A DNA stretch of 36,304 nt, taken from Saccoglossus kowalevskii. Lineage: Eukaryota > Hemichordata > Enteropneusta > Harrimaniidae. The stretch's first letter is position 1, and each line of letters begins with the position of its first letter. Made by a program: the position numbers and the translations under genes. Shown piece by piece: positions 1-36,304 of the stretch. Location: contig NW_003155262.1 in NCBI RefSeq assembly GCF_000003605.2, positions 1 through 36,304 on the forward strand. Reading direction: 5' to 3'. The notes beneath the pieces are model-generated. The model searched no databases. It had not been told where the DNA came from and was given only the letters and a program-made list of their open reading frames with translations.

Positions 1-3
1 TCA

Positions 4-3000
4 TCAAGTGGTAGGTTCCATTGTTGTCTCTATTTCAGTGGTTAACTCAGTAGTTGCAGCATCCGTTGTGACATCAGTGGTAGGTTCCATTGTTGTCTCC
101 ATTTCAGTAGTTAACTCAGTAGTTGCAGCATCTGTTGTGACATCAGTGGTAGGTTCCATTGTTGTCTCCATTTCAGTGGTTAACTCAGTAGTTACAGCAT
201 CCGTTGTTACATCAGTGGTAGGTTCCATTGTTGTCTCCATTTCAGTAGTTAACTCAGTAGTTGCAGCAGCCGTTGTGACATCAGTGGTAGGTTCCATTGT
301 TGTCTCTATTTCAGTGGTTAACTCAGTAGTTGCAGCATCCGTTGTTACATCAGTGGTAGGTTCCATAGTTGTCTCCATTTCAGTGGTTAAATCAGTAGTT
401 ACAGCATCTGTAGTTACATCAGTGGTAGGTTCAATTGTTGTCTCTATTTCAGTGGTTAAATCAGTAGTTACAGCATCTGTAGTTACATCAGTGGTAGGTT
501 CCAATGTTGTCTCTATTTCAGTGGTTAACTCAGTAGTTGCAGCAGCCGTTGTGACATCAGTGGTAGTTTTCATTGTTGTCTCCATTTCAGTGGTTAACTC
601 AGTAGTTGCAACATCCGTTGTTACATCAGTGGTAGGTTCCATTGTTGTCTCTATTTCAGTGGTTAACACAGTAGTTGCAGCATCCGTTGTTACATCAGTG
701 GTAGGTTCCATTGTTGTCTCCATTTCAGTGGTTAACTCAGTAGTTACAGCATCTGTAGTTACATCAGTGGTAGTTTCCATTGTTGTCTCCATTTCAGTGG
801 TTAACTCAGTAGTTGCAGTATCCGTTGTTACATCAGTGGTAGGTTCCATTGTTGTCTCCATTTCAGTGGTTAACTCAGTAGTTACAGCATCCGTTGTTAC
901 ATCAGTGGTAGGTTCCATTGTTGTCTCCATTTCAGTTGTTAACTCAGTAGTTGCAGAATCCGTTGTGACATCAGTGGTAGGTTCCATTGTTGTCTCTATT
1001 TCAGTGGTTAACTCAGTAGTTAAAGCATCCGTTGTGACATCAGTGGTAGGTTCCATTGTTGTCTCCATTTCAGTAGTTAACTTGGTAGTTGCAGCATCTG
1101 TAGTGACATCAGTGGTAGGTTGCATTGTTGTCTCCATTTCAGTGCTTAACTCAGTAGTTGCAGAATCCGTTGTGACATCAGTGGTAGGTTCCATTGTTGT
1201 CTCCGTTTCAGTAGTTAACTCAGTAGTTGCAGAATCCGTTGTGACATCAGTGGTAGGTTCCATTGTTGTCTCCATTTCAGTAGTTAACTCGGTAGTTGCA
1301 GCATCTGTAGTGACATCAGTGGTAGGTTCCATTGTTGTCTCCATTTCAGTGGTTAACTCAGTAGTTAAAGCATCCGTTGTGACATCAGTGGTAGGTTCCA
1401 TTGTTAACTCAGTAGTTTCAGCATCTGTCGTTACATCAGTGGTAGGATCCATTGTTGTCTCTATTTCAGTAGTTAACTCTGTAGTTGCAGCATCCGTTGT
1501 TACATCAGTGGTAGGTTCCATTGTTGTCTCCATTCCAGTGGTTAACTCAGTAGTTACAGCATCTGTAGTTACATCAGTGGTAGGTTCCATTGTTGTCTCC
1601 ATTTCAGTGGTTAACTCAGTAGTTGCAGTATCCGTTGTGACATCAGTCGTAGGTTCCATTGTTGTCTCTATTTCAGTGGTTAACTCAGTAGTTACAGCAT
1701 CTGTAGTTACATCAGTGGTAGGTTCCATTGTTGTCTCCATTTCAGTGGTTAACTCAGTAGTTACAGCATCCGTTGTTACATCAGTGGTAGGTTCCATTGT
1801 TGTCTCCATTTCAGTGGTTAACTCAGTAGTTACAGCATCTGCAGTTACATCAGTGGTAGATTCCATTGTTGTCTCCATTTCAGTAGTTAACTCAGTAGTT
1901 GCAGAATCCGTTGTTACATCAGTGGTAGGTTCCATTGTTGTCTCCATTTCAGTGGTTAACTCAGTAGTTACAGCATCCGTTGTTACATCAGTGGTAGGTT
2001 CCATTGTTGTCTCCATTTCAGTGGTTAACTCAGTAGTTACAGCATCTGTAGTTACATCAATGGTAGGTTCCATTGTTGTCTCCATTTCAGTAGTTAACTC
2101 AGTAGTTACAGCATCCGTTGTTACATCAGTGGTAGGTTCCATTGTTGTCTCCATTTCAGTGGTTAACTCAGTAGTTGCAGCATCCGTTGTTACATCAGTG
2201 GTAGGTTCCATTGTTGTCTCCATTTCAGTGGTTAACTCATTAGTTGCAGCATCTGTAGTTACATCGGTGGTAGGTTCCATTGTTGTCTCAATTTCCGTGG
2301 TTAACTCAGTAGTTACAGCATCCGTTGTTACATCAGTGGTAGGTTCCATTGTTGTCTCCATTTCAGTGGTTATCTCAGTAGATACATAATCCGTTGTTAC
2401 ATCAGTGGTAGGTTCCATTGTTGTCTCCATTTCAGTGGTTAACTCAGTAGTTACAGCGTCCGTTGTTACATCAGTGGTAGGTTCCATTGTTGTCTCCATT
2501 TCAGTGGTCAACTCAGTAGTTACAGAATCCGTTGTTACATTAGTGGTAGGTTGCATTGTTGTCTCCATTTCAGTGGTTAACTCAGTTGTTGCAGCATCCG
2601 TTGTTACATCAGTGGTAGGTTGCATTGTTGTCTCCATTTCAGTGGTTAACTCAGAAGTTAAAGCATCTGTAGTGACATCAGTGGTAGGTTCCATTGTTGT
2701 CTCCATTTTAGTGGTTAACTCAGTAGTTACAGCATCCGTTGTGACATCAGTGGTAGGTTCCATTGTTGTCTCCATTTCAGTGGTTAACCCAGTAGTTACA
2801 GAATCTGTAGTGACATCAGTGGTAGGTTCCATTGTTGTCTCCATTTCAGTGGTTAACTCAGTAGTTTCAGCATCCGTTGTTACATCAGTGGTAGGTTCCA
2901 TTGTTGTCCCCATTTCAGTGGTTAACTCAGTAGTTACAGTATCTGTAGTTACATCAGTGGTAGGTTCCATGGTTGTCTCCATTTCAGTGGTTAACCCAGT

Positions 3001-5112
3001 AGTTAAAACATCTGTAGTGACATCAGTGGTTGGTTCCATTGTTGTCTCCATTTCAGTAGTTAACTCTGTAGTTGCAGCATCCGTTGTTACATCAGTGGTA
3101 GGTTCCATTGTTGTCTCCATTCCAGTGGTTAACTCAGTAGTTACAGCATATGTAGTTACATCAGTGGTAGGTTCCATTGTTGTCTCCATTTCAGTGGTTA
3201 ACTCAGTAGTTGCAGTATCCGTTGTGACATCAGTCGTAGGTTCCATTGTTGTCTCTATTTCAGTGGTTAACTCAGTAGTTACAGCATCTGTAGTTACATC
3301 AGTGGTAGGTGTCATTGTTGTCTCCATTTCAGTGGTTAACTCTGTAGTTTCAGCATCTGTTGTGACATCAGTGGTAGGTTCCATTGTTGTCTCCATTTCA
3401 GTGGTTAATTCAGTAGTTACAGCATCTGTAGTTACATCAGTGGTAGGTTCCATTGTTGTCTCCATTTCAGTGGTTAACTCAGTTGTTTCAGCATCTGTTG
3501 TGACATCAGTGGTAGGTTCCATTGTTGTTTCCATTTCAGTGGTTAACTCAGTAGTTGCAGCATCCGTTGTTACATCAGTGGTAGTTTCCATTGTTGTCTC
3601 CATTTCAGTGGTTAACTCAGTAGTTGCAGCATCTGTAGTTACATCGGTGGTAGGTTCCATTGTTGTCTCCATTTCAGTGGTTAACTCAGTAGTTACAGCA
3701 TACGTTGTTACATCAGTGGTAGGTTCCATTGTTGTCTCCATTTTAGTGGTTAACTCAGTAGTTACAGAATCCGTTGTTACATCAGTGGTAGGTTCCCTTG
3801 TTGTCTCCATTTCAGTGGTTAACTCAGTAGTTACAGAATCCGTTGTTACATCAGTGGTAGGTTCCATTGTTGTCTCCATTTCAGTGGTTAACTCAGTTGT
3901 TGCAACATCCGTGGTTACATCAGTGGTAGGTTCCATTGTTGTCTCCATTTCAGTGGTTAACTCAGTAGTTACAGCATCCGTTGTTACATCAGTGGTAGGT
4001 TCCATTGTTGTCTCCATTTCAGTGGTTAACTCAGTAGTTACAGCATCTGTAGTTACATCAGTGGTAGGTTCCATTGTTGTCTCCATTTCAGTGGTTAACT
4101 CGGTAGTTGCAGCATTCCCGTTTGTTACATCAGTGGTAGGTTCCATTGTTGTCTCCATTTCAGTAGTTAACTCAGTAGTTGCAGCATCTGTAGTTACATC
4201 TGTGGTAGGTTCCATTGTTGTCTCCATTTCAGTGGTTAACTCAGTAGTTGCAGCATCCGTTGTTACATCAGTGGTAGGTTCCATTGTTGTCTCAATTTCA
4301 GTGGTTAACTCAGTAGTTGCAGCATCCGTTGTGACATCAGTGGTAGGTTCCATTGTTGTCTCCATTTCAGTGGTTAACTCAGTAGTTGCAGCATCCGTTG
4401 TAACATCAGTGGTAGGTTCCATTGTTGTCTCTATTTCAGTGGTTAACTCAGTAGTTGCAACATCTGTAGTTACATCAGTGGTAGGTTCCATTGTTGTCTC
4501 CATTTCAGTGGTTAACTCAGTAGTTGCAGCATCCGTTGTTACATCAGTGGTAGGTTCCATTGTTGTCTCCATTTCAGTAGTTAACACAGTAGTTGCAGCA
4601 TCCGTTGTGACATCAGTGGTAGGTTCCATTGTTGTCTCTATTTCAGTGGTTAACTCAGTAGTTACAGCATCTGTAGTTACATCAGTGGTAGGTTCCATTG
4701 TTGTCTCCATTTCAGTGGTTAACTCAGTAGTTACAGTATCTGTAGTTACATCAATGGTAGGTTCCATTGTTGTCTCTATTTCAGTGGTTAACTCAGTAGT
4801 TACAGCATCTGTAGTTACATCAGTGGTAGGTTCCATTGTTGTCTCCATTTCAGTGGTTAACTCAGTAGTTGCAGCATCCGTTGTTACATCAGTGGTAGGT
4901 TCCATTGTTGTCTCAATTTCAGTGGTTAACTCAGTAGTTGCAGTATCCGTTGTGACATCAGTGGTAGGTTCCATTGTTGTCTCCATTTCAGTGGTTAACT
5001 CAGTAGTTGCAGCATCCGTTGTAACATCAGTGGTAGGTTCCATTGTTGTCTCTATTTCAGTGGTTAACTCAGTAGTTGCAGCATCTGTAGTTACATCAGT
5101 GGTAGGTTCCAT
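4..5112 (-). CDS. Mucin-like Thr/Glu-rich repeat protein, segment 1 (most C-terminal in window)
   Basis: This frame of 1,702 codons consists only of the 23-residue repeat and is the most varied part of the array. Residue 12 is A, V, E or L, and residue 11 is A, V, S or T. Single units carry MTPTT, MGTTM, DYVST or MQPTTNV. A 17-residue short unit lies at about 1390-1440. A 24-residue unit with an N-G-N insertion at 4113-4123 is probably a read error. The TGA at 4-6 that ends the frame is created by one extra A at 6-7, so it is unlikely to be the true C terminus. The first Met at 5112 is simply the first Met after the indel cluster at 5124-5333; each unit has two Met codons, so it is not a real start. 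Composition (about 43% Thr, 26% acidic) fits a densely O-glycosylated, extended extracellular domain. That role is inferred from composition, not from a recognised family domain. Confidence 0.7.
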   Translation of the reverse strand: MEPTTDVTTDAATTELTTEIETTMEPTTDVTTDAATTELTTEMETTMEPTTDVTTDTATTELTTEIETTMEPTTDVTTDAATTELTTEMETTMEPTTDVTTDAVTTELTTEIETTMEPTIDVTTDTVTTELTTEMETTMEPTTDVTTDAVTTELTTEIETTMEPTTDVTTDAATTVLTTEMETTMEPTTDVTTDAATTELTTEMETTMEPTTDVTTDVATTELTTEIETTMEPTTDVTTDAATTELTTEMETTMEPTTDVTTDAATTELTTEIETTMEPTTDVTTDAATTELTTEMETTMEPTTDVTTDAATTELTTEMETTMEPTTDVTNGNAATTELTTEMETTMEPTTDVTTDAVTTELTTEMETTMEPTTDVTTDAVTTELTTEMETTMEPTTDVTTDVATTELTTEMETTMEPTTDVTTDSVTTELTTEMETTREPTTDVTTDSVTTELTTKMETTMEPTTDVTTYAVTTELTTEMETTMEPTTDVTTDAATTELTTEMETTMETTTDVTTDAATTELTTEMETTMEPTTDVTTDAETTELTTEMETTMEPTTDVTTDAVTTELTTEMETTMEPTTDVTTDAETTELTTEMETTMTPTTDVTTDAVTTELTTEIETTMEPTTDVTTDTATTELTTEMETTMEPTTDVTTYAVTTELTTGMETTMEPTTDVTTDAATTELTTEMETTMEPTTDVTTDVLTTGLTTEMETTMEPTTDVTTDTVTTELTTEMGTTMEPTTDVTTDAETTELTTEMETTMEPTTDVTTDSVTTGLTTEMETTMEPTTDVTTDAVTTELTTKMETTMEPTTDVTTDALTSELTTEMETTMQPTTDVTTDAATTELTTEMETTMQPTTNVTTDSVTTELTTEMETTMEPTTDVTTDAVTTELTTEMETTMEPTTDVTTDYVSTEITTEMETTMEPTTDVTTDAVTTELTTEIETTMEPTTDVTTDAATNELTTEMETTMEPTTDVTTDAATTELTTEMETTMEPTTDVTTDAVTTELTTEMETTMEPTIDVTTDAVTTELTTEMETTMEPTTDVTTDAVTTELTTEMETTMEPTTDVTTDSATTELTTEMETTMESTTDVTADAVTTELTTEMETTMEPTTDVTTDAVTTELTTEMETTMEPTTDVTTDAVTTELTTEIETTMEPTTDVTTDTATTELTTEMETTMEPTTDVTTDAVTTELTTGMETTMEPTTDVTTDAATTELTTEIETTMDPTTDVTTDAETTELTMEPTTDVTTDALTTELTTEMETTMEPTTDVTTDAATTELTTEMETTMEPTTDVTTDSATTELTTETETTMEPTTDVTTDSATTELSTEMETTMQPTTDVTTDAATTKLTTEMETTMEPTTDVTTDALTTELTTEIETTMEPTTDVTTDSATTELTTEMETTMEPTTDVTTDAVTTELTTEMETTMEPTTDVTTDTATTELTTEMETTMETTTDVTTDAVTTELTTEMETTMEPTTDVTTDAATTVLTTEIETTMEPTTDVTTDVATTELTTEMETTMKTTTDVTTAAATTELTTEIETTLEPTTDVTTDAVTTDLTTEIETTIEPTTDVTTDAVTTDLTTEMETTMEPTTDVTTDAATTELTTEIETTMEPTTDVTTAAATTELTTEMETTMEPTTDVTTDAVTTELTTEMETTMEPTTDVTTDAATTELTTEMETTMEPTTDVTTDAATTELTTEIETTMEPTT
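1010..1745. repeat. Higher-order block, duplicated 330 units away (copy 1)
   Basis: About 735 bp match 23769-24504 unit by unit. They share GTTAAAG, AACTTGG, GTGCTTAAC, CCGTTTCAG, the 18-bp deletion, GGATCC and ATTCCAG variants. I count about four base differences: near 1105, 1112, 1131 and 1427. Similarity stops near 1746, where the other copy switches to a different unit. Confidence 0.88.
1390..1440 (-). repeat. Short 17-residue unit (18-bp in-frame deletion), copy 1
   Basis: The unit lacks 18 bases (six residues, TEMETT-type), so TTELT runs directly into MEPTTDV. The junction is at about 1401-1410 on the plus strand. Only one other unit in the window has this deletion, at about 24160, and its neighbouring units match too. 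The deletion is in frame. Confidence 0.9.
2520..3015. repeat. Relative of the 34.9-35.9 kb block (470 units away)
   Basis: The ordered variants GTTACAGAATCC, TTGCATTG, GTTGTTGCAG, GAAGTTAAAG, ATTTTAGTGG, GTTAACCCAG, GTTTCAG and GTTAAAACATC match 34,935-35,430. The distance 32,415 becomes 32,430 (470 x 69) after indel correction. Several private substitutions suggest this pair is older than the 9-unit duplication at 35 kb. Confidence 0.82.
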
Positions 5113-5345
5113 TGTTGTCTCAATTTTCAGTGGTTAACTCAGTAGTTGCAGCATCCGTTGTTACATCAGTGGTAGGTTTCCATTGTTGTCTCTATTTCAG
5201 TGGTTAAACTCTGTAGTTACAGCATCTGTAGTTACATCAGTGGTAGGTTCCCATAGTTGTCTCCATTTCAGTGGTTAAATTCAGTAGTTGCAGCATCCGT
5301 TGTGACATCAGTGGTAGGGTTCCATTGTTGTCTTATTTCAGTGGT
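5113..5345. other. Cluster of seven single-base indels breaking the frame
   Basis: Compared with neighbouring units there is an extra T at 5124-5127, an extra T at 5177-5179, an extra A at 5206-5208, an extra C at 5250-5252, an extra base at 5276-5282, an extra G at 5317-5319 and a missing base at about 5333 (net +5). Nearly all lie in homopolymers. Thousands of bases on either side have none, so this looks like uncorrected low-quality read sequence rather than biological decay. Confidence 0.85.
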
Positions 5346-8300
5346 TAACTCAGTAGTTGCAGCATCTGTAGTTACATCAGTGGTAGCTTCCATTGTTGTC
5401 TCCATTTCAGTGGTTAACTCAGTAGTTGCAGCATCCGTTGTGACATCAGTGGTAGGTTCCATAGTTGTCTCCATTTCAGTGGTTAACTCAGTAGTTGCAG
5501 CATCCGTTGTGACATCAGTGGTAGGTTCCATTGTTGACTCCATTTCAGTGGTTAACTCAGTAGTTACAGCATCTGTAGTTACATCAGTGGTAGGTTCCAT
5601 TGTTGTCTCCATTTCAGTGGTTAACTCAGTAGTTGCAGCGTCCGTTGTTACATCAGTGGTAGGTTCCATTGTTGTCTCCATTTCAGTAGTTAACTCAGTA
5701 GTTGCAGCATCCGTTGTGATATCAGTGGTAGGTTCCATTGTTGTCTCTATTTCAGTGGTTAACTCAGTAGTTACAGCATCTGTAGTTACATCAGTGGTAG
5801 GTTCCATTGTTGTCTCCATTTCAGTGGTTAACTCAGTAGTTTCAGCATCTGTAGTTACATCAGTGGTAGGTTCCATTGTTGTCTCCATTTCAGTGGTTAA
5901 CTCAGTAGTTGCAGCATCCGTTGTGACATCAGCGGTAGGTTCCATTGTTGTCTCTATTTCAGTGGTTAACTCAGTAGTTACAGCATCTGTAGTTACATCA
6001 GTGGTAGGTTCCATTGTTGTCTCCATTTCAGTAGTTAACTCAGTAGTTGCAGCATCCGTTGTGACATCAGTGGTAGGTTCCATTGTTGTCTCCATTTCAG
6101 TGGTTAACTCAGTAGTTGCAGCATCTGTAGTTACATCAGTGGTAGGTTCCATTGTTGGCTCCATTTCAGTGGTTAACTCAGTAGTTGCAGCATCTGTAGT
6201 TACATCAGTGGTAGGTTCCATTGTTGTCTCCATTTCAGTGGTTAACTCAGTAGTTGCAGCATCCGTTGTGACATCAGTGGTAGGTTCCATTGTTGTCTCC
6301 ATTTCAGTGGTTAACTCAGTAGTTGCAGCATCCGTTGTGACATCAGTGGTAGGTTCCATTGTTGTCTCCATTTCAGTGGTTAACTCAGTAGTTACAGCAT
6401 ATGTAGTTACATCAGTCGTAGGTTCCATTGTTGTCTCCATTTCAGTGGTTAACTCAGTAGTTGCAGCATCCGTTGTTACATCAGTGGTAGGTTCCATGGT
6501 TGTCTCCATTTCAGTAGTTAACTCAGTAGTTGCCGCATCCGTTGGTACATCAGTGGTAGGTTCCATTGTTGTCTCCATTTCAGTAGTTAACTCAGTAGTT
6601 GCAGCATCCGTTGTTACATCAGTGGTAGGTTCCATTGTTGTCTCCATTTCAGTAGTTAACTCAGTAGTTGCAGCATCCGTTGGTACATCAGTGGTAGGTT
6701 CCATTGTTGTCTCCATTTCAGTGGTTAACTCTGTAGTTTCAGCATCTGTTGTGACATCAGTGGTAGGTTCCATTGTTGTCTCCATTTCAGTGGTTAACTC
6801 AGTAGTTACAGCATCTGTAGTTACATCAGTGGTAGGTTCCATTGTTGTCTCCATTTCAGTGGTTAACTCAGTAGTTGCAGCATCCATTGTTACATCAGTG
6901 GTAGGTTCCATTGTTGTCTCCATTTCAGTAGTTAACTCAGTAGTTGCCGCATCCGTTGGTACATCAGTGGTAGGTTCCATTGTTGTCTCCATTTCAGTAG
7001 TTAACTCAGTAGTTGCAGCATCCGTTGTTACATCAGTGGTAGGTTCCATTGTTGTCTCCATTTCAGTGGTTAACTCAGTAGTTGCAGCATCTGTAGTTAC
7101 ATCAGTGGTAGGTTCCATTGTTGTCTCCATTTCAGTGGTTAACTCAGTAGTTGCAGCATCCGTTGTGACATCAGTGGTAGGTTCCATTGTTGTCTCCATT
7201 TCAGTGGTTAACTCAGTAGTTGCAGCATCCGTTGTGACATCAGCGGTAGGTTCCATTGTTGTCTCCATTTCAGTGGTTAACTCAGTAGTTGCAGCATCTG
7301 TAGTTACATCAGTGGTAGGTTCCATTGTTGTCTCCATTTCAGTGGTTAACTCAGTAGTTGCAGCATCCGTTGTGACATCAGTGGTAGGTTCCATTGTTGT
7401 CTCCATTTCAGTGGTTAACTCAGTAGTTGCAGCATCCGTTGTGACATCAGTGGTAGGTTCCATTGTTGTCTCCATTTCAGTGGTTAACTCAGTAGTTACA
7501 GCATATGTAGTTACATCAGTGGTAGGTTCCATTGTTGTCTCCATTTCAGTGGTTAACTCACTAGTTGCAGCGTCCGTTGTTACATCAGTGGTAGGTTCCA
7601 TTGTTGTCTCCATTTCAGTAGTTAACTCAGTAGTTGCAGCATCCGTTGTGATATCAGTGGTAGGTTCCATTGTTGTCTCTATTTCAGTGGTTAACTCAGT
7701 AGTTACAGCATCTGTAGTTACATCAGTGGTAGGTTCCATTGTTGTCTCCATTTCAGTGGTTAACTCAGTAGTTTCAGCATCTGTAGTTACATCAGTGGTA
7801 GGTTCCATTGTTGTCTCCATTTCAGTGGTTAACTCAGTAGTTGCAGCATCCGTTGTGACATCAGCGGTAGGTTCCATTGTTGTCTCCATTTCAGTAGTTA
7901 ACTCAGTAGTTGCAGCATCTGTAGTTACATCAGTGGTAGGTTCCATTGTTGTCTCCATTTCAGTGGTTAACTCAGTAGTTGCAGCATCCGTTGTTACATC
8001 AGTGGTAGGTTCCATTGTTGTCTCAATTTCAGTGGTTAACTCAGTAGTTGCAGCATCCGTTGTGACATCAGTGGTAGGTTCCATTGTTGTCTCCATTTCA
8101 GTGGTTAACTCAGTAGTTGCAGCATCCGTTGTAACATCAGTGGTAGGTTCCATTGTTGTCTCTATTTCAGTGGTTAACTCAGTAGTTGCAACATCTGTAG
8201 TTACATCAGTGGTAGGTTCCATTGTTGTCTCCATTTCAGTGGTTAACTCAGTAGTTGCAGCATCCGTTGTTACATCAGTGGTAGGTTCCATTGTTGTCTC

Positions 8301-9476: not shown

Positions 9477-9489
9477 TTCAGTGGTTAAC

Positions 9490-9535
9490 TCAGTAGTGCT
9501 GCATCCGTTGTGACATCAGTGGTAGGTTCCCATTG
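9490..9535. other. Compensated indel pair (-1 then +1)
   Basis: A base is missing and the order is altered at about 9494-9501 (GTAGTGCTGC in place of GTAGTTGCAGC). An extra C follows at 9529-9531. Only about 12 codons between them are out of register. The stop at 9516-9518 on the minus strand exists only in this shifted stretch. Confidence 0.85.
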
Positions 9536-16859: not shown

Positions 16860-16894
16860 TTCAGTGGTTAACTCAGTAGATGCAGCATCTGTAG

Positions 16895-24901: not shown

Positions 24902-24957
24902 TGTTGTCTCTATTTCAGTGGTTAACTCAGTAGTTGCAGCATCCGTTGTGACATCAG

Positions 24958-25066
24958 TGGTAGTTCCATTGTTGTCTCCATTTCAGTAGTTAACTCAGTA
25001 GTTGCAGCATCTGTTGTGACATCAGTGGTAGGTTCCATTGTTGTCTCCATTTCAGTGGTTTAACTC
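24958..25066. other. Compensated indel pair (-1 at about 24963, +1 at about 25060)
   Basis: One G is missing in GTGGTAGTTCC and one T is added in GTGGTTTAAC. The two cancel, leaving about 100 bases out of register between segments 4 and 5. Confidence 0.87.
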
Positions 25067-26776: not shown

Positions 26777-26811
26777 TTCAGTAGTTAGCTCAGTAGTTGC
26801 AGCATCCGTTG

Positions 26812-27603
26812 TTACATCAGTGGTACTTTCCCTTTTGTCTCCATTTCAGTAGTTAACTCAGTAGTTGCATCATCCGTTGTGACATCAGTGGTAGGTTCCA
26901 TTGTTGTCTCCATTTCAGTGGTTAACTCAGTAGTTACAGCATCTGTAGTTACATCAGTGGTAGGTTCCATTGTTGTCTCCATTTCAGTTGTTAACTCCGT
27001 AGTTGCAGAATCCGTTGTGACATCAGTGGTAGGTTCCATTGTTGTCTCCATTTCAGTAGTTAACTCAGTAGTTGCAGCATCCGTTGTGACATCAGTGGTA
27101 GGTTCCATTGTTGTCTCCATTTCAGTGGTTAACTCAGTAGTTACAGCATCTGTAGTTACATAAGTAGTAGGTTCCATTGTTGTCTCCATTTCAGTGGTTA
27201 ACTCAGTAGTTACAGCATCTGTAGTTACATCAGTGGTAGGTTCCATTGTTGTCTCCAGTTCAGTAGTTAACTCAGTAGTTGCAGCTTCCGTTGTGACATC
27301 AGTGGTAGGTTCCATTGTTGTCTCTATTTCAGTAGTTAACTCAGTAGTTGCAGCAGCCGTTGTGACATCAGTGGTAGGTTCCATTGTTGTCTCCATTTCA
27401 GTAGTTAACTCAGTAGTTGCAACATCCGTTGTTACATCAGTGGTAGGTTCCATTGTTGTCTCTATTTTAGTGGTTAACTCAGTAGTTGCAGCATCCGTTG
27501 TGACATCAGTGGTAGGTTCCATTGTTGTCTCTATTTCAGTAGTTAACTCAGTAGTTGCAGCATCTGTAGTTACATCAGTGGTAGGTTCCATTGTCGTCTC
27601 CAT
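26812..27603 (-). CDS. Mucin-like Thr/Glu-rich repeat protein, segment 6 (short)
   Basis: These 263 codons are repeat. The C-terminal few residues (KGKVPLM) are out of register and come from the damaged unit at 26824-26843. One unit has Tyr in place of Asp at residue 6 (TTYVTTDAV), which puts a TAA at 27161-27163 on the opposite strand. The variants TTAAATTEL, DVTTEAATTEL and TTKIETT match, in the same order, units near 18,850-19,240 in segment 4. The segment is thus part of a block duplicated 122 units away. The upstream limit is a cluster of three single-base indels at 27649-27681. Confidence 0.62.
   Translation of the reverse strand: METTMEPTTDVTTDAATTELTTEIETTMEPTTDVTTDAATTELTTKIETTMEPTTDVTTDVATTELTTEMETTMEPTTDVTTAAATTELTTEIETTMEPTTDVTTEAATTELTTELETTMEPTTDVTTDAVTTELTTEMETTMEPTTYVTTDAVTTELTTEMETTMEPTTDVTTDAATTELTTEMETTMEPTTDVTTDSATTELTTEMETTMEPTTDVTTDAVTTELTTEMETTMEPTTDVTTDDATTELTTEMETKGKVPLM
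26820..26850. other. Damaged unit with one-base loss and several substitutions
   Basis: The usual GGTAGGTTCCATTG part of the unit is replaced by GGTACTTTCCCTTTTG. This is one base shorter and differs at several positions, more than any other unit in the window. It interrupts both strands. Confidence 0.8.
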
Positions 27604-28565
27604 TTCAGTGGTTAACTCAGTAATTGCAGCATCCGTTGTGACATCAGTGTAAGTTCCATTGTTGTCTCCATTTTCAGTGGGTTAACTCAGTAGTTACAGC
27701 ATCTGTTGTGACATCAGTGGTAGGTTCCATTGTTGTCTCTATTTCAGTGGTTAACTCAGTAGTTGCAGCATCCGTTGTGACATCTGTGGTAGGTTCCATT
27801 GTTGTCTCCATTTCAGTGGTTAACTCAGTAGTTGCAGCATCCGTTGTGACATCAGTGGTAGGTTCCATTGTTGTCTCTATTTCAGTGGTTAACTCAGTAG
27901 TTGCAGCATCTGTAGTTACATCAGTGGTAGGTTCCATTGTTGTCTCCATTTCAGTCGTTAACTCAGTAGTTACAGCATCCGTTGTTACATCAGTGGTAGG
28001 TTCCATTGTTGTCTCAATTTCAGTGGTTAACTCAGTAGTTGCAGTATCCGTTGTGACATCAGTGGTAGGTTCCATTGTTGTCTCCATTTCAGTGGTTAAC
28101 TCAGTAGTTGCAGCATCCGTTGTAACATCAGTGGTAGGTTCCATTGTTGTCTCTATTTCAGTGGTTAACTCAGTAGTTGCAGCATCTGTAGTTACATCAG
28201 TGGTATGTTCCATTGTTGTCTCCATTTCAGTGGTTAACTCAGTAGTTGCAGCATCCGTTGTTACATCAGTGGTAGGTTCCATTGTTGTCTCCAATTCAGT
28301 AGTTAACTCAGTAGTTGCTGCATCCGTTGTGACATCAGTGGTAGGTTCTATTGTTGTCTCCATTTCAGTAGTTAACACAGTAGTTGCAGCATCCGTAGTG
28401 ACATCAGTGGTAGGTTCCATTGTTGTCTCTATTTCAGTTGTTAACTCAGTAGTTACAGCATCTGTAGTTACATCAGTGGTAGGTTCCATTGTTGTCTCCA
28501 TTTCAGTGGTTAACTCAGTAGTTGCAGCATCCGTTGTTACATCAGTGGTAGGTTCCATTGTTGTC
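27164..28565. repeat. Higher-order block, duplicated 122 units away (copy 2)
   Basis: This is the partner of 18,765-20,165. Its second half (about 28,020-28,785, extending slightly beyond this block) is copied again at 33,745-34,510, including the rare GGTATGTTCC and AGCAGTAGG variants, 83 units further on. Confidence 0.87.
27646..27684. other. Cluster of three single-base indels
   Basis: A base is missing in CAGTGTAAGTTCC (27649-27651), an extra T lies at 27671-27674 and an extra G at 27678-27681, net +1. The homologous block at 18.8-20.1 kb has none of these and the two copies keep the same 122-unit register on both sides. This points to base-level error rather than a rearrangement. Confidence 0.86.
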
Positions 28566-31500
28566 TCAATTTCAGTGGTTAACTCAGTAGTTGCAGCATC
28601 CGTTGTGACATCAGTGGTAGGTTCCATTGTTGTCTCCATTTCAGTGGTTAACTCAGTAGTTGCAGCATCCGTTGTTACATCAGTGGTAGGTTCCATTGTT
28701 GTCTCCATTTCAGTGGTTAACTCAGTAGTTACAGCATCTGTAGTTACATCAGCAGTAGGTTCCATTGTTGTCTCCATTTCAGTGGTTAACTCAGTAGTTA
28801 TAGCATCCGTTGTTACATCAGTGGTAGGTTCCATTGTTGTCTCAATTTCAGTGGTTAACTCAGTAGTTGCAGTATCCGTTGTGACATCAGTGGTAGGTTC
28901 CATTGTTGTCTCCATTTCAGTGGTTAACTCAGTAGTTGCAGCATCCGTTGTAACATCAGTGGTAGGTTCCATTGTTGTCTCTATTTCAGTGGTTAACTCA
29001 GTAGTTGCAGCATCTGTAGTTACATCAGTGGTAGGTTCCATTGTTGTCTCAATTTCAGTGGTTAACTCAGTAGTTGCAGCATCCGTTGTTACATCAGTGG
29101 TAGGTTCCATTGTTGTCTCCATTTCAGTGGTTAACTCTGTAGTTACAGCATCTGTTGTGACATCAGTGGTAGGTTCCATTGTTGTCTCTATTTCAGTGGT
29201 TAACTCAGTAGTTGCAGCATCCGTTGTGACATCTGTGGTAGGTTCCATTGTTGTCTCCATTTCAGTGGTTAACTCAGTAGTTGCAGCATCCGTTGTGACA
29301 TCAGTGGTAGGTTCCATTGTTGTCTCTATTTCAGTGGTTAACTCAGTAGTTGCAGCATCTGTAGTTACATCAGTGGTAGGTTCCATTGTTGTCTCCATTT
29401 CAGTGGTTAACTCGGTAGTTGCATCATCCGTTGTTACATCAGTGGTAGGTTCCATTGTTGTCTCCATTTCAGTGGTTAACTCAGTAGTTACAGCATCTGT
29501 AGTTACATCAGTGGTAGGTTCCATTGTTGTCTCCATTTCAGTGGTTAACTCAGTAGTTACAGCATCTGTTGTGACATCAGTGGTAGGTTCCATTGTTGTC
29601 TCTATTTCAGTAGTTAACTCAGTAGTTGCAGCAGCCGTTGTGACATCAGTGGTAGTTTCCATTGTTGTCTCCATTTCAGTGGTTAATTCAGTAGTTACAG
29701 CATACGTTGTGACATCAGTGGTAGGTTCCATTGTTGTCTCTATTTCAGTGGTTAACTCAGTAGTTGCAGCATCTGTAGTTACATCAGTGGTAGGTTCCAT
29801 TGTTGTCTCCATTTCAGTGGTTAACTCAGTAGTTACAGCATCCGTTGTTACATCAGTGGTAGGTTCCATTGTTGTCTCAATTTCAGTGGTTAACTCAGTA
29901 GTTGCAGTATCCGTTGTGATATCAGTGGTAGGTTCCATTGTTGTCTCCATTTCAGTGGTTAACTCAGTAGTTGCAGCATCCGTTTTAACATCAGTGGTAG
30001 GTTCCATTGTTGTCTCTATTTCAGTGGTTAACTCAGTAGTTGCAGCATCTGTAGTTACATCAGTGGTAGGTTCCATTGTTGTCTCCATTTCAGTGGTTAT
30101 CTCAGTAGTTGCAGCATCCGTTGTTACATCAGTAGTAGGTTCCATTGTTGTCTCCATTTCAGTAGTTAACACAGTAGTTGCAGCATCCGTAGTGACATCA
30201 GTGGTAGGTTCCATTGTTGTCTCTATTTCAGTGGTTAACTCAGTAGTTGCAGCATCTGTAGTTACATCAGTGGTAGGTTCCATTGTTGTCTCCATTTCAG
30301 TGGTTAACTCAGTAGTTGCTACATCCGTTGTTACATCAGTGGTAGGTTCTATTGTTGTCTCCATTTCAGTAGTTAACACAGTAGTTGCAGCATCCGTAGT
30401 GACATCAGTGGTAGGTTCCATTGTTGTCTCTATTTCAGTGGTTAACTCAGTAGTTACAGCATCTGTAGTTACATCAGTGGTAGGTTCCATTGTTGTCTCC
30501 ATTTCAGTGGTTAACTCAGTAGTTACAGCATCTGTAGTTACATCAGTGGTAGGTTCCATTGTTGTCTCCATTTCAGTGGTTAACTCGGTAGTTGCATCAT
30601 CCGTTGTTACATCAGTGGTAGGTTCCATTGTTGTCTCCATTTCAGTGGTTAACTCAGTAGTTACAGCATCTGTAGTTACATCAGTGGTAGGTTCCATTGT
30701 TGTCTCCATTTCAGTGGTTAACTCAGTAGTTACAGCATCTGTTGTGACATCAGTGGTAGGTTCCATTGTTGTCTCTATTTCAGTAGTTAACTCAGTAGTT
30801 GCAGCAGCCGTTGTGACATCAGTGGTAGTTTCCATTGTTGTCTCCATTTCAGTGGTTAATTCAGTAGTTACAGCATACGTTGTGACATCAGTGGTAGGTT
30901 CCATTGTTGTCTCTATTTCAGTGGTTAACTCAGTAGTTGCAGCATCTGTAGTGACATCAGTGGTAGATTCCATTGTTGTCTCTATTTCAGTGGTTAACTC
31001 AGTAGTTGCAGCATCCGTTGTGACATCAGCGGTAGGTTCCATTGTTATCTCTATTTCAGTGGATAACTCAGTAGTTGCAGCATTCGTTGTCACATCGGTG
31101 GTAGGTTCCATTGTTGTCTCCATTTCAGTGGTTAACTCAGTTGTTGCAGCATTCGTTGTCACATCAGTGGTAGGTTCCATTGTTGTCTTCATTTCAGTGG
31201 TTAACTCAGTAGTTACAGCATCTGTAGTTACATCAGTGGTAGGTTCCATTGTTGTCTCCATTTCAGTGGTTAACTCAGTAGTTACAGCATCTGTAGTTAC
31301 ATCAGTGGTAGGTTCCATTGTCGTCTCCATTTCAGTGGTTAACTCAGTAGTTGCAGCATCCGTTGTGACATCAGTGGTAGGTTCCATTGTTGTCTCTATT
31401 TCAGTGGTTAACTCAGTAGTTGCAGCATCTGTAGTGATATCAGTGATAGGTTCCATTGTTGTCTCCTTTTCAGTGGTTAACTCAGTAGTTGCAGCATCCG

Positions 31501-33733
31501 TTGTAACATCAGTGGTAGGTTCCATTGTTGTCTTTATTTCAGTGGTTAACTCAGTAGTTGCAGCATCTGTAGTTACATCAGTGGTAGGTTCCATTGTTGT
31601 CTCCATTTCAGTGGTTAACTCAGTAGTTGCAGCATCTGTAGTTACATCAGTTGTAGGTTCCATTGTTGTCTCCATTTCAGTAGTTAACTCAGTAGTTGCA
31701 GCATCCGTTGTGACATCAGTGGTAGGTTCTATTGTTGTCTCCATTTCAGTAGTTAACACAGTAGTTGCAGCATCCGTAGTGACATCAGTAGTAGGTTCCA
31801 TTGTTGTCTCTATTTCAGTGGTTAACTCAGTAGTTACAGCATCTGTAGTTACATCAGTGGTAGGTTCCATTGTTGTCTCCATTTCAGTGGTTAACTCGGT
31901 AGTTGCAGCATCCGTTGTTACATCAGTGGTAGGTTCCATTGTTGTCTCCATTTCAGTAGTTAACTCAGTAGTTGCAGCATCTGTAGTTACATCAGTGGTA
32001 GGTTCCATTGTTGTCTCCATTTCAGTGGTTAACTCAGTAGTTGCAGCATCCGTTGTTACATCAGTGGTAGGTTCCATTGTTGTCTCAATTTCAGTGGTTA
32101 ACTCAGTAGTTGCAGCATCCGTTGTGACATCAGTGGTAGGTTCCATTGTTGTCTCTATTTCAGTGGTTAACTCAGTAGTTGCAACATCTGTAGTTACATC
32201 AGTGGTAGGTTCCATTGTTGTCTCCATTTCAGTGGTTAACTCAGTAGTTGCAGCATCCGTTGTTACATCAGTGGTAGGTTCCATTGTTGTCTCCATTTCA
32301 GTAGTTAACACAGTAGTTGCAGCATCCGTTGTGACATCAGTGGTAGGTTCCATTGTTGTCTCTATTTCAGTGGTTAACTCAGTAGTTACAGCATCTGTAG
32401 TTACATCAATGGTAGGTTCCATTGTTGTCTCTATTTCAGTGGTTAACTCAGTAGTTGCAGCATCCGTTGTTACATCAGTGGTAGGTTCCATTGTTGTCTC
32501 CATTTCAGTAGTTAACTCAGTAGTTGCAGCATCCGTTGTGACATCAGTGGTAGGTTCCATTGTTGTCTCTATTTCAGTGGTTAACTCAGTAGTTACAGCA
32601 TCTGTAGTTACATCAGTGGTAGGTTCCATTGTTGTCTCCATTTCAGTGGTTAACTCAGTAGTTTCAGCATCTGTTGTGACATCAGTGGTAGGTTCCATTG
32701 TTGTCTCCATTCCAGTGGTTAACTCAGTAGTTACATCATCTGTAGTTACATCAGTGGTAGGTTCCATTGTTGTCTCCATTTCAGTGGTTAACTCAGTAGT
32801 TGCAGCATCCGTTGTGACATCAGTGGTAGGTTCCATTGTTGTCTCTATTTCAGTGGTTAACTCAGTAGTTACAGCATCTGTAGTTACATCAGTGGTAGGT
32901 TCCATTGTTGTCTCCATTTCAGTGGTTAACTCAGTAGTTGCAGCATCCGTTGTGACATCAGTGGTAGGTTCCATTGTTGTCTCTATTTCAGTGGTTAACT
33001 CAGTAGTTGCAGCATCTGTAGTTACATCAGTGGTAGCTTCCATTGTTGTCTCCATTTCAGTGGTTAACTCAGTAGTTGCAGCATCCGTTGTGACATCAGT
33101 GGTAGGTTCCATAGTTGTCTCCATTTCAGTGGTTAACTCAGTAGTTGCAGCATCCGTTGTGACATCAGTGGTAGGTTCCATTGTTGACTCCATTTCAGTG
33201 GTTAACTCAGTAGTTACAGCATCTGTAGTTACATCAGTGGTAGGTTCCATTGTTGTCTCCATTTCAGTGGTTAACTCAGTAGTTGCAGCGTCCGTTGTTA
33301 CATCAGTGGTAGGTTCCATTGTTGTCTCCATTTCAGTAGTTAACTCAGTAGTTGCAGCATCCGTTGTGATATCAGTGGTAGGTTCCATTGTTGTCTCTAT
33401 TTCAGTGGTTAACTCAGTAGTTACAGCATCTGTAGTTACATCAGTGGTAGGTTCCATTGTTGTCTCCATTTCAGTGGTTAACTCAGTAGTTTCAGCATCT
33501 GTAGTTACATCAGTGGTAGGTTCCATTGTTGTCTCCATTTCAGTGGTTAACTCAGTAGTTGAAGCATCCGTTGTGACATCAGCGGTAGGTTCCATTGTTG
33601 TCTCTATTTCAGTGGTTAACTCAGTAGTTACAGCATCTGTAGTTACATCAGTGGTAGGTTCCATTGTTGTCTCCATTTCAGTGGTTAACTCAGTAGTTGC
33701 AGCATCCGTTGTGACATCAGTGGTAGGTTCCAT
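27674..33733 (-). CDS. Mucin-like Thr/Glu-rich repeat protein, segment 7
   Basis: These 2,019 codons are repeat. Notable variant units include MEHTTDV (Pro to His, about 28203), DAITTEL, DVKTD, TTEITTEM, MEPITDI, TTEKETT and MESTTDV. A 17-unit tandem duplication lies within about 29390-30950. The stretch 32,645-33,733 matches 15,690-16,780 unit by unit. The frame begins at a Met just below a cluster of four single-base losses (33740-33844) and ends in the 27649-27681 cluster. No non-repeat residues are present apart from the last two, which are frameshift products. Confidence 0.7.
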   Translation of the reverse strand: MEPTTDVTTDAATTELTTEMETTMEPTTDVTTDAVTTELTTEIETTMEPTADVTTDASTTELTTEMETTMEPTTDVTTDAETTELTTEMETTMEPTTDVTTDAVTTELTTEIETTMEPTTDITTDAATTELTTEMETTMEPTTDVTTDAATTELTTEMETTMEPTTDVTTDAVTTELTTEMESTMEPTTDVTTDAATTELTTEMETTMEPTTDVTTDAATTELTTEMETTMEATTDVTTDAATTELTTEIETTMEPTTDVTTDAATTELTTEMETTMEPTTDVTTDAVTTELTTEIETTMEPTTDVTTDAATTELTTEMETTMEPTTDVTTDDVTTELTTGMETTMEPTTDVTTDAETTELTTEMETTMEPTTDVTTDAVTTELTTEIETTMEPTTDVTTDAATTELTTEMETTMEPTTDVTTDAATTELTTEIETTMEPTIDVTTDAVTTELTTEIETTMEPTTDVTTDAATTVLTTEMETTMEPTTDVTTDAATTELTTEMETTMEPTTDVTTDVATTELTTEIETTMEPTTDVTTDAATTELTTEIETTMEPTTDVTTDAATTELTTEMETTMEPTTDVTTDAATTELTTEMETTMEPTTDVTTDAATTELTTEMETTMEPTTDVTTDAVTTELTTEIETTMEPTTDVTTDAATTVLTTEMETTIEPTTDVTTDAATTELTTEMETTMEPTTDVTTDAATTELTTEMETTMEPTTDVTTDAATTELTTEIKTTMEPTTDVTTDAATTELTTEKETTMEPITDITTDAATTELTTEIETTMEPTTDVTTDAATTELTTEMETTMEPTTDVTTDAVTTELTTEMETTMEPTTDVTTDAVTTELTTEMKTTMEPTTDVTTNAATTELTTEMETTMEPTTDVTTNAATTELSTEIEITMEPTADVTTDAATTELTTEIETTMESTTDVTTDAATTELTTEIETTMEPTTDVTTYAVTTELTTEMETTMETTTDVTTAAATTELTTEIETTMEPTTDVTTDAVTTELTTEMETTMEPTTDVTTDAVTTELTTEMETTMEPTTDVTTDDATTELTTEMETTMEPTTDVTTDAVTTELTTEMETTMEPTTDVTTDAVTTELTTEIETTMEPTTDVTTDAATTVLTTEMETTIEPTTDVTTDVATTELTTEMETTMEPTTDVTTDAATTELTTEIETTMEPTTDVTTDAATTVLTTEMETTMEPTTDVTTDAATTEITTEMETTMEPTTDVTTDAATTELTTEIETTMEPTTDVKTDAATTELTTEMETTMEPTTDITTDTATTELTTEIETTMEPTTDVTTDAVTTELTTEMETTMEPTTDVTTDAATTELTTEIETTMEPTTDVTTYAVTTELTTEMETTMETTTDVTTAAATTELTTEIETTMEPTTDVTTDAVTTELTTEMETTMEPTTDVTTDAVTTELTTEMETTMEPTTDVTTDDATTELTTEMETTMEPTTDVTTDAATTELTTEIETTMEPTTDVTTDAATTELTTEMETTMEPTTDVTTDAATTELTTEIETTMEPTTDVTTDAVTTELTTEMETTMEPTTDVTTDAATTELTTEIETTMEPTTDVTTDAATTELTTEIETTMEPTTDVTTDAATTELTTEMETTMEPTTDVTTDTATTELTTEIETTMEPTTDVTTDAITTELTTEMETTMEPTADVTTDAVTTELTTEMETTMEPTTDVTTDAATTELTTEMETTMEPTTDVTTDAATTELTTEIETTMEPTTDVTTDAATTELTTEMETTMEPTTDVTTDAVTTELTTEIETTMEPTTDVTTDAATTVLTTEMETTIEPTTDVTTDAATTELTTELETTMEPTTDVTTDAATTELTTEMETTMEHTTDVTTDAATTELTTEIETTMEPTTDVTTDAATTELTTEMETTMEPTTDVTTDTATTELTTEIETTMEPTTDVTTDAVTTELTTEMETTMEPTTDVTTDAATTELTTEIETTMEPTTDVTTDAATTELTTEMETTMEPTTDVTTDAATTELTTEIETTMEPTTDVTTDAVTTELTH
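29390..30950. repeat. 17-unit (1,173-bp) period, about 1.3 copies
   Basis: The markers GTTGCATCATCC (29420 and 30593) and GGTTAATTCA (29681 and 30854) each recur exactly 1,173 bp apart, which is 17 units. About 390 bp are repeated at the end of the block. After about 30,950 the sequence diverges. The same block occurs once more at 20,925-22,118. Confidence 0.87.
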
Positions 33734-33737
33734 TGTT

Positions 33738-33848
33738 GTCTCATTTCAGTGGTTAACTCAGTAGTTGCAGTATCCGTGTGACATCAGTGGTAGGTTCCAT
33801 TGTGTCTCCATTTCAGTGGTTAACTCAGTAGTTGCAGCATCCGTGTAA
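33738..33848. other. Cluster of four single-base losses at a block transition
   Basis: Bases are missing at about 33741 (TCTCATTT), 33777 (CCGTGTG), 33802 (TTGTGTC) and 33844 (CCGTGTA). Each is a one-base shortening of a doubled base or short run. Left of the cluster the units match 15.7-16.8 kb; right of it they match 28.0-28.8 kb. Confidence 0.86.
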
Positions 33849-34510
33849 CATCAGTGGTAGGTTCCATTGTTGTCTCTATTTCAGTGGTTAACTCAGTAGT
33901 TGCAGCATCTGTAGTTACATCAGTGGTATGTTCCATTGCTGTCTCCATTTCAGTGGTTAACTCAGTAGTTGCAGCATCCGTTGTTACATCAGTGGTAGGT
34001 TCCATTGTTGTCTCCAATTCAGTAGTTAACTCAGTAGTTGCTGCATCCGTTGTGACATCAGTGGTAGGTTCTATTGTTGTCTCCATTTCAGTAGTTAACA
34101 CAGTAGTTGCAGCATCCGTAGTGACATCAGTGGTAGGTTCCATTGTTGTCTCTATTTCAGTTGTTAACTCAGTAGTTACAGCATCTGTAGTTACATCAGT
34201 GGTAGGTTCCATTGTTGTCTCCATTTCAGTGGTTAACTCAGTAGTTGCAGCATCCGTTGTTACATCAGTGGTAGGTTCCATTGTTGTCTCAATTTCAGTG
34301 GTTAACTCAGTAGTTGCAGCATCCGTTGTGACATCAGTGGTAGGTTCCATTGTTGTCTCCATTTCAGTGGTTAACTCAGTAGTTGCAGCATCCGTTGTTA
34401 CATCAGTGGTAGGTTCCATTGTTGTCTCCATTTCAGTGGTTAACTCAGTAGTTACAGCATCTGTAGTTACATCAGCAGTAGGTTCCATTGTTGTCTCCAT
34501 TTCAGTGGTT
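33745..34510. repeat. Third copy of the 28.0-28.8 kb block (83 units away)
   Basis: GGTATGTTCC (28203 and 33926, numbered at GTATG) and CAGCAGTAGG (28751 and 34474, numbered at AGCAG) keep a constant offset of 5,723. That is 83 x 69 minus the four bases lost in the 33.74-33.84 kb cluster. The order of unit types agrees throughout. Confidence 0.86.
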
Positions 34511-36279
34511 AACTCAGTAGTTACAGCATCTGTAGTTACATCAGTGGTAGGTTCCATTGTTGTCTCCATTTCAGTAGTTAACTCAGTAGTTGCAGCATCC
34601 GTTTTGACATCAGTGGTAGGTTCCATTGTTGTCTCCATTTCAGTGGTTAACTCAGTAGTTACAGCATCTGTAGTTACATCAGTAGTAGGTTCCATTGTTG
34701 TCTCCATTTCAGTGGTTAACTCAGTAGTTACAGCATCTGTAGCTACATCAGTGGTAGGTTCCATTGTTGTCTCCATTTCAGTGGTTAACTCAGTAGTTGC
34801 AGCATCCGTTGTTACATCAGTGGTAGGTTCCATTGTTGTCTCCATTTCAGTGGTTAACTCTGTAGTTACAGCATCCGTTGTGACATCAGTGGTAGGTTCC
34901 ATTGTTGTCTCCATTTCAGTAGTTAACTCAGTAGTTACCGAATCCGTTGTTACATCAGTGGTAGGTTGCATTGTTGTCTCCATTTCAGTGGTTAACTCAG
35001 TTGTTGCAGCATCCGTTGTTACATCAGTGGTAGGTTCCATTGTTGTCTCCATTTCAGTGGTTAACTCAGAAGTTAAAGCATCTGTAGTGACATCAGTGGT
35101 AGGTTCCATTGTTGTCTCCATTTTAGTGGTTAACTCAGTAGTTACAGCATCCGTTGTGACATCAGTTGTAGGTTCCATTGTTGTCTCCATTTCAGTGGTT
35201 AACCCAGTAGTTACAGAATCTGTAGTGACATCAGTGGTAGGTTCCATTGTTGTCTCCATTTCAGTGGTTAACTCAGTAGTTTCAGCATCCGTTGTTACAT
35301 CAGTGGTAGGTTCCATTGTTGTCTCCATTTCAGTGGTTAACTCAGTAGTTACAGCATCTGTAGTTACATCAGTGGTAGGTTCCATTGTTGTCTCCATTTC
35401 AGTGGTTAACCCAGTAGTTAAAACATCTGTAGTGACATCAGTGGTAGGTTCCATTGTTGTCTCCATTTCAGTGGTTAACTCAGTAGTTTCAGCATCCGTT
35501 GTTACATCAGTGGTAGGTTCCATTGTTGTCTCCATTTCAGTGGTCAACTCAGTAGTTACCGAATCCGTTGTTACATCAGTGGTAGGTTGCATTGTTGTCT
35601 CCATTTCAGTGGTTAACTCAGTTGTTGCAGCATCCGTTGTTACATCAGTGGTAGGTTCCATTGTTGTCTCCATTTCAGTGGTTAACTCAGAAGTTAAAGC
35701 ATCTGTAGTGACATCAGTGGTAGGTTCCCTTGTTGTCTCCATTTTAGTGGTTAACTCAGTAGTTACAGCATCCGTTGTGACATCAGTGGTAGGTTCCATT
35801 GTTGTCTCCATTTCAGTGGTTAACCCAGTAGTTACAGAATCTGTAGTGACATCAGTGGTAGGTTCCATTGTTGTCTCCATTTCAGTGGTTAACTCAGTAG
35901 TTTCAGCATCTGTAGTTACATCAGTGGTAGGTTCCATTGTCTCCATTTCAGTGGTTAACTCAGTAGTTGCAGCATCCGTTGTTACATCAGTGGTAGGTTC
36001 CATTGTTGTCTCCATTTCAGTGGTTAACTCTGTAGTTACAGCATCTGTTGTGACATCAGTGGTAGGTTCCATTGTTGTCTCCAGTTCAGTAGTTAACTCA
36101 GTAGTTGCAGCATCCGTTGTTACATCAGTGGTAGGTTCCATTGTTGTCTCCATTTCAGTGGTTAACTCAGTAGTTGCTGCATCCGTTGTGACATCAGTGG
36201 TAGGTTCCATTGATGTCTCTATTTCAGTGGTTAACTCAGTAGTTACAGCATCTGTTGTGACATCAGTGGAAGGTTCCAT
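33820..36279 (-). CDS. Mucin-like Thr/Glu-rich repeat protein, segment 8 (most N-terminal in window)
   Basis: These 819 codons are repeat, with diversity rising again above 34,500: DALTSEL, DSVTTGL, DVLTTGL, MQPTTDV, METTREP and TTKMETT. One unit at about 35936-35942 lacks a 3-bp GTT, giving a 22-residue unit (METMEP) without breaking the frame. A 9-unit near-tandem duplication starts at 34935. The frame ends at 33820 in a short scramble caused by the indel cluster at 33740-33844. It begins at 36279 only because one base is missing at about 36281. The real N terminus and any signal peptide lie beyond the right edge of the window. Confidence 0.68.
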   Translation of the reverse strand: MEPSTDVTTDAVTTELTTEIETSMEPTTDVTTDAATTELTTEMETTMEPTTDVTTDAATTELTTELETTMEPTTDVTTDAVTTELTTEMETTMEPTTDVTTDAATTELTTEMETMEPTTDVTTDAETTELTTEMETTMEPTTDVTTDSVTTGLTTEMETTMEPTTDVTTDAVTTELTTKMETTREPTTDVTTDALTSELTTEMETTMEPTTDVTTDAATTELTTEMETTMQPTTDVTTDSVTTELTTEMETTMEPTTDVTTDAETTELTTEMETTMEPTTDVTTDVLTTGLTTEMETTMEPTTDVTTDAVTTELTTEMETTMEPTTDVTTDAETTELTTEMETTMEPTTDVTTDSVTTGLTTEMETTMEPTTDVTTDAVTTELTTKMETTMEPTTDVTTDALTSELTTEMETTMEPTTDVTTDAATTELTTEMETTMQPTTDVTTDSVTTELTTEMETTMEPTTDVTTDAVTTELTTEMETTMEPTTDVTTDAATTELTTEMETTMEPTTDVATDAVTTELTTEMETTMEPTTDVTTDAVTTELTTEMETTMEPTTDVKTDAATTELTTEMETTMEPTTDVTTDAVTTELTTEMETTMEPTADVTTDAVTTELTTEMETTMEPTTDVTTDAATTELTTEMETTMEPTTDVTTDAATTELTTEIETTMEPTTDVTTDAATTELTTEMETTMEPTTDVTTDAVTTELTTEIETTMEPTTDVTTDAATTVLTTEMETTIEPTTDVTTDAATTELTTELETTMEPTTDVTTDAATTELTTEMETAMEHTTDVTTDAATTELTTEIETTMEPTTDVTRMLQLLS
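34935..35910. repeat. 9-unit (621-bp) near-tandem duplication
   Basis: The marker TTACCGAATCC lies at 34935 and 35556, 621 bp apart. It is followed in both copies by TTGCATTG, GTTGTTGCAG, GAAGTTAAAG, ATTTTAGTGG and GTTAACCCAG units in the same order. The second copy is cut short near 35910. A third, older relative lies at 2,520-3,015, 470 units away. Confidence 0.86.
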
Positions 36280-36304
36280 TGTGTCTCCAGTTCAGTAGTT
36301 AACT

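Follow-up and report, generated by a model that had tools for sequence, protein, structure and literature searches.

Very long repeat-coding exons of variable length are described for the human tethered mucins MUC12, MUC4 and MUC16 (PMC13345508, preprint). According to the same preprint, MUC12 alleles are predicted to encode 4,677 to 23,080 amino acids (aa) and their sizes span a range of 55,233 bp; for MUC4, the longest allele measures 27,843 bp. Mucin-like proteins of Drosophila are reported to span 300 to 23,000 aa (PMC2515642). In CDHR5, cadherin repeats and a mucin-like domain occur together, in the order four extracellular cadherin (EC) repeats, mucin-like domain, membrane segment (PMC8691648). 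Here we analyse a tandem array of 69-bp units that fills contig NW_003155262.1 of the Saccoglossus kowalevskii assembly GCF_000003605.2 (36,304 bp; this whole stretch is the window, and C4466 where contigs have to be told apart). Based on its reading frame and its relatives elsewhere in the genome, we think it on balance probable that the window is the inside of a giant minus-strand coding minisatellite, an acidic mucin-like tract that would probably make up an N-terminal bristle on a large cadherin.

How does this locus compare with the systems already described? Like the tethered mucins, it would be a very long repeat-coding exon of variable length. Unlike them, the array is threonine-rich and acidic, with almost no serine and without cysteine, and no SEA, EGF or VWD domain is known beside it, its flanks being missing. 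With CDHR5 it would share the union of cadherin repeats and a mucin-like domain. The order differs, however: the threonine block of two cadherin-linked relatives in the same genome, on contigs C1877 and C1513, stands ahead of the cadherin exons, and it would be far longer than in CDHR5 if the array belongs there.

Period, reading frame and composition

The window is one of 4,830 contigs in an assembly of 572,110,611 bases and holds nothing but 69-bp units. Tandem Repeats Finder (TRF) returned 20.3 copies of 69 bp at 2-1405, 329.8 copies of 69 bp at 1403-24164 and a 69-bp period over 2088-36304. Wraparound alignment resolved 528 units, two of them partial; 509 measure 69 bp, two measure 51 bp and the others 66-72 bp. 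The full units match the consensus at a mean of 95.8% and fall into 189 distinct sequences. Anchors at 10 and 36268 lie 526 x 69 minus 36 bases apart, and the two 51-bp units explain the missing 36 bases, so that the remaining indels cancel and the count of 526 is correct. The initial annotation had read at least 526 units in an unvarying 69-bp period, with both edges of the window still inside the array. All of this is borne out: chance is excluded as the source of the period, and both contig ends fall within the repeat, leaving the array without its edges.

What does the array encode? The minus strand reads TTDAATTELTTEMETTMEPTTDV, and in this frame none of the 509 full units contains a stop codon when wrapped on itself. 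Four of the other five frames hold 526 to 1,526 stops and one plus-strand frame holds 8. Among 1,482 substitution occurrences in the minus frame, 836 are synonymous, against an expected share of 19.8%, 644 change a residue and 2 would create a stop if placed alone on the consensus; these occurrences are not independent, since the units are copies of one another. The choice of strand has a point against it, as the cleanest plus frame is nearly as free of stops and its synonymous share is higher (991/1,482). Because the plus frame also passes the synonymous test, the coding direction rests on homology to the relatives; the antisense frame stays open because the third codon positions of both frames coincide. 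Plus-strand coding was rejected, given that it would yield a valine-rich chain with 8 stops in 509 units, running in the opposite direction to the cadherin-linked relatives. Judged from the relatives, the coding strand is the minus strand. Plus-strand open frames, the one at 27642-33761 among others, reach up to 2,040 codons and are valine-rich.

About 12,100 residues had been given for a continuous translation of the window. As assembled, the minus frame instead falls into eight stop-to-stop stretches of 289 to 2695 codons, which take up almost the whole contig with 12,021 codons in all (Table 1), and single-base indels interrupt it at seven places, which counts against an intact coding array. 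The roughly 12,000 residues, or about 15,900 together with a second contig, C1709, if both belong to one array, nevertheless fall among the largest mucins, as had been supposed. Size alone sets no record, since the MUC12 alleles predicted in the preprint reach 23,080 residues, and with Drosophila mucin-like proteins given as up to 23,000 aa the description of one of the longer coding tracts imaginable was overstated. What remains of that description is a coding, mucin-like array of at least 526 units, for which the stop-free units, the synonymous excess and the threonine-rich relatives beside cadherin exons all argue.

Composition was taken from seven ATG-started open reading frames joined into 11,631 aa, the 289-codon stretch being excluded. 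Threonine accounts for 43.1%, followed by E (17.0%), D (8.6%), M (7.3%), A (6.8%), V (5.9%), L (4.6%) and P (4.25%), with S at 0.4%; there is no cysteine and one N-glycosylation sequon. The predicted product is a strongly acidic, threonine-rich, mucin-like chain. Thresholds given for mucins are S+T above 25%, more than three repeats of ten aa and proline above 0.1% (Syed et al. 2008, PMC2515642). The array passes them with S+T of 43.5%, P of 4.25% and more than 500 repeats of 23 aa. A denser proline-threonine-serine (PTS) rule sets S+T at 40 or more and P at 5 or more per 100 aa; its S+T part holds in 11,521 of 11,532 windows of the chain and both parts together in 3,802 of 11,532. Two observations weigh against the mucin-like assignment. 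Proline is slightly low under the denser rule, and Pfam is silent: a 704-aa piece of the array, which is repeat only, matched 0 families and hence not the cadherin family PF00028, and the threonine frames of C1877 and C1513 with their following segments matched no family at 1e-3.

Cadherin-linked relatives of the array

Across the whole assembly, a 26-base core of the unit (up to 2 mismatches) was found 515 times in forward and 161 times in reverse orientation. C4466 holds the 515 and C1709 the 161, and all matches sit on these two of the 4,830 contigs. C1709 (11,478 bp) is array throughout, with 168 units, 155 of them of 69 bp; 98 of these 155 are identical to a unit of C4466, and 50 distinct full units are common to both contigs. 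A DNA search with 600 bases of the array, in which 1 of 3 candidates was scored, hit a single place, C1877:42850-43121, with 64% identity. When the array protein was compared with the assembly by tblastn (150 of 941 candidates scored), 149 matches were obtained, mostly on C4466 and C1709; the others lie on C1513 (4) and C1877 (1) and, as weak hits, on C1485 (2) and on C3731, C1224 and C4281 (1 each). No contig carrying an edge of the array was found with the core pattern or tblastn, and the unscored candidates could hide a strongly diverged edge.

Both relatives join a threonine-rich repeat to cadherin exons. On C1877, a minus-strand block of 14-aa (42-bp) units, TTMEPTTDVTTEA, continues in frame into QCEVILGYENVTV and then into cadherin exons. 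About two dozen units are visible before an 8.7-kb run of N (C1877:43857-52592), which immediately borders the threonine block on its N-terminal side; from this run to the contig end no threonine-rich frame of at least 70 aa was seen. On C1513, a 557-codon open stretch, mostly of 23-aa units, TTSLDTTTESTTETTTEEPTTDL, leads into PCEVVSGYENATF and again into cadherin exons. The segments that follow the repeats, QCEVILGYEN.. in C1877 and PCEVVSGYEN.. in C1513, are 64% identical. One open stretch of each contig matches PF00028 (E 6.4e-45 for C1877, 1.2e-41 for C1513), and all cadherin matches with E of 1e-10 or less, 3 in C1877 and 4 in C1513, are located C-terminal to the threonine block; on its other side no cadherin appeared among the 100 matches listed (150 of 317 candidates scored). 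In C167 and C3527, a common GFENxTxQ segment stands in an open stretch after cadherin-like sequence. These two contigs and C187, all found by the post-repeat segment, carry further members of this cadherin family and show no threonine-rich frame of at least 60 aa in 3.2 kb of each. The threonine block of C1877 and C1513 may be an insertion ahead of the GFENxTxQ segment or a replacement of upstream repeats.

C1877 resembles the array in its minus-strand threonine-rich repeats and differs in its unit of 14 aa; C1513 resembles it in unit length and differs in having about 20 copies of weakly similar units. The six commonest units of C4466 match C1877 in up to 20 of 23 residues, against 11-14 in 20 shuffles, and match C1513 in 12 of 23, against 11-13. 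At the level of consensus, the 14-aa unit of C1877 agrees with the C4466 unit at 12 of 14 positions, with a run of 11 residues (reached by 0/2000 shuffles). The C1513 consensus agrees at 12 of 23, which 60/2000 shuffles reach, with a run of 5, which 200/2000 reach. By repeat sequence, then, the closest relative of the array is the threonine-rich block of C1877, on the N-terminal side of a cadherin gene. Since this block is nearest by sequence and breaks into N at that very place, the array would most simply be the missing part of the C1877 gene or of a close sister. C1513 was set aside as host: its threonine frame appears complete, with splice-acceptor-like sequence before the frame (judged by eye) and a 9.9-kb stretch free of N, and its unit resembles that of the array only weakly. 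The C1513 repeat has the unit length of the array, with a weakly similar sequence. That it is a 69-bp repeat of its own suggests that a 23-aa period may be favoured or may have arisen twice.

Several findings weigh against C1877 as host. No contig was found that links the 69-bp array to any gene. In tblastn, C1513 scores higher (66.9 bits, 47%) than C1877 (53.9 bits, 62%). The DNA consensuses are weakly alike, codon shuffles reaching the score in 7/300 cases for C1513 and 5/300 for C1877. The unit is 14 aa in C1877 against 23 aa in the array, and the 8.7-kb run of N falls short of the 47.8 kb that the array occupies on the two contigs.

Block copying, probable assembly joints and rival explanations

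Provided that the assembly is correct, block copying has enlarged or homogenised the array, as follows from its many near-identical multi-unit copies: there are 111 such tracts, against 0 to 2 in five shuffled unit orders. The best 25 of the 111 comprise 9 to 20 units each, lie 11 to 401 units apart and have mean identities of 0.983-0.999. Adjacent units are marginally less similar (0.9325) than the average pair (0.9365). A drift of units towards the C1877 type at one end of C4466, which would hint at orientation, was not seen. The mode is copying of blocks by unequal exchange or conversion, beyond single-unit slippage, although assembler error could contribute part of the signal. The 51-bp short unit occurs in three copies in all, two in C4466 and one in C1709, and keeps the frame. 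The region round 24141-24191 is 95-99.7% identical to that at about 600-2100 (diagonal 22759, 300-base bins). A unit of 69 bases is 3 x 23, so that whole copies can be gained or lost without loss of frame.

Is the assembled array what the genome contains? The repeat itself is real in any case, and it is a serious possibility, if somewhat short of probable, that the assembly has its length and order partly wrong, the true array being shorter or longer, or two alleles having been joined at places of low quality; in that case C4466 and C1709 may be alleles or parts of one array, as the full units they have in common would allow. We counted 21 single-base indels, setting aside both 51-bp units, 4115-4121, runs of more than 1 base and the first 10 bases. 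They are tightly clustered, with 13 of 20 gaps at 250 bp or less; in 20,000 random draws the number of such gaps averaged 2.7 and never exceeded 9. The cluster at 5124-5334 is a burst of errors, and the first full-length unit at its end carries 14 mismatches, 6 of them rare. Such clusters are probably poorly polished assembly joints, not decay. Exact copies up to the length of the longest in Table 1 could, moreover, mislead an assembler. On the other hand, the high identities of the best tracts at many different lags are unexpected from simple mis-joining, and the frame is held through all eight open stretches. As this explanation touches the size of the array and not its nature, it is compatible with the coding array in a cadherin gene that we prefer.

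Two further explanations concern nature. The array could be a coding, mucin-like tract of a separate gene that has no more than threonine-rich repeats in common with the cadherin-linked loci, for instance a secreted mucin with its end exons on contigs that hold no repeat. This would suit the confinement of the core pattern to two array-only contigs, the different unit lengths of C1877 and the array, and the weak similarity of C1513. It fits less well with the terminal unit of C1877, whose 20 of 23 shared residues lie above all 20 shuffles, or with the run of N that cuts C1877's own threonine frame, and we hold a separate gene to be unlikely. Contigs made of array alone are a frequent outcome for satellites. 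A non-coding satellite or minisatellite whose minus strand is open by chance would account for C4466 and C1709 in this way and for the seven interruptions of the frame; we nonetheless regard it as highly improbable in view of the 509 stop-free units with their synonymous excess, the resemblance to threonine-rich frames that run into cadherin genes, and the restriction of the 26-base core to just two of 4,830 contigs.

Table 1. Positions of the array, its open stretches, joints and copies (window coordinates unless a contig is named; open stretches as length from first ATG, with stop-to-stop codons in brackets)
Feature	Position	Strand	Remark
69-bp unit array, 23-aa unit TTDAATTELTTEMETTMEPTTDV	1..36304	-	TRF, wraparound alignment, frame test
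Open stretch, 1702 aa (1709)	4..5112	-	
Open stretch, 1402 aa (1415)	5268..9476	-	
Open stretch, 2447 aa (2470)	9516..16859	-	
Open stretch, 2668 aa (2695)	16895..24901	-	
Open stretch, 574 aa (597)	25052..26776	-	
Open stretch, 289 codons, shifted frame between two indel clusters	26815..27681	-	Coordinates converted from reverse-strand position
Open stretch, 2019 aa (2023)	27674..33733	-	
Open stretch, 819 aa (823)	33820..36279	-	
51-bp short unit, 17 aa, in frame	1382..1432	-	
Second 51-bp short unit	24141..24191	-	
7 single-base indels, clustered; probable assembly joint	5124..5334		
4 single-base deletions, clustered; probable assembly joint	33742..33844		
1206-bp block, identical to 29526-30731; long-range block copy in array	20919..22124		Longest exact copy
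Threonine-rich frame of C1513 with own 69-bp repeat, about 20 copies	5232-6902 within C1513:24001-33900	-	

Apart from the array, the mitochondrial contig C4830 (4341 bases around COX1) carries COX1 between ND1 and COX2 on the opposite strand. Judged by position, AAA reads as Lys and TGA as Trp, AGA occupies a conserved Ser site, and Ile suits the sites of ATA. COX1 is reported to be inverted in Saccoglossus kowalevskii relative to Balanoglossus, with AAA as Lys (Perseke et al. 2011, PMC3121625). The inversion and the AAA assignment of C4830 therefore agree with a Saccoglossus-like enteropneust mitochondrion. A lancelet source was discarded, since the lancelet rearrangements detailed in PMC2034537 contain no inverted COX1; one more event, in the A. 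lucayanum complex, is mentioned there without detail. A bacterial or phage source was likewise discarded, given the 572-Mb assembly with its mitochondrial contig and cadherin genes.

Implications of a proposed cadherin-borne bristle

What would such an array do on a cadherin? In mucins, O-glycans on clustered threonines extend the chain into a hydrated brush. If the array belongs to the C1877 cadherin gene or to a close sister, it would form a bristle at the outer, N-terminal end of a large cadherin. Its paired threonines, once O-glycosylated, together with the acidic residues could turn this bristle into a stretched and hydrated brush on the cell surface. Tethering or linking the brush would fall to the cadherin chain, and as the outermost part of the molecule the brush might serve cell spacing, lubrication or an epithelial barrier. 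In its fullest form, the picture is of a hemichordate cadherin whose N-terminal bristle, mucin-like and encoded by a single exon, would count 12,000 to 16,000 residues or more (C4466 and C1709 together) and exceed the remaining protein in length. The molecule would be linked to the membrane in a layout opposite to that of CDHR5, and its copy number could vary without leaving the frame. We put this forward tentatively, as possible rather than probable. Among the papers listed for threonine-rich N-terminal cadherins, for Saccoglossus together with mucin and cadherin and for acorn-worm mucins, no title or abstract opening describes an N-terminal brush-cadherin layout.

The array exemplifies how a gene of this kind can be broken or lost in a draft assembly. 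Should the link to cadherins be true, it would also offer an extreme coding minisatellite outside the vertebrates in which to study block copying, frame keeping and homogenisation, and one family would possess both repeats for calcium-dependent adhesion and, at the far end of the protein, a giant brush of mucin type.

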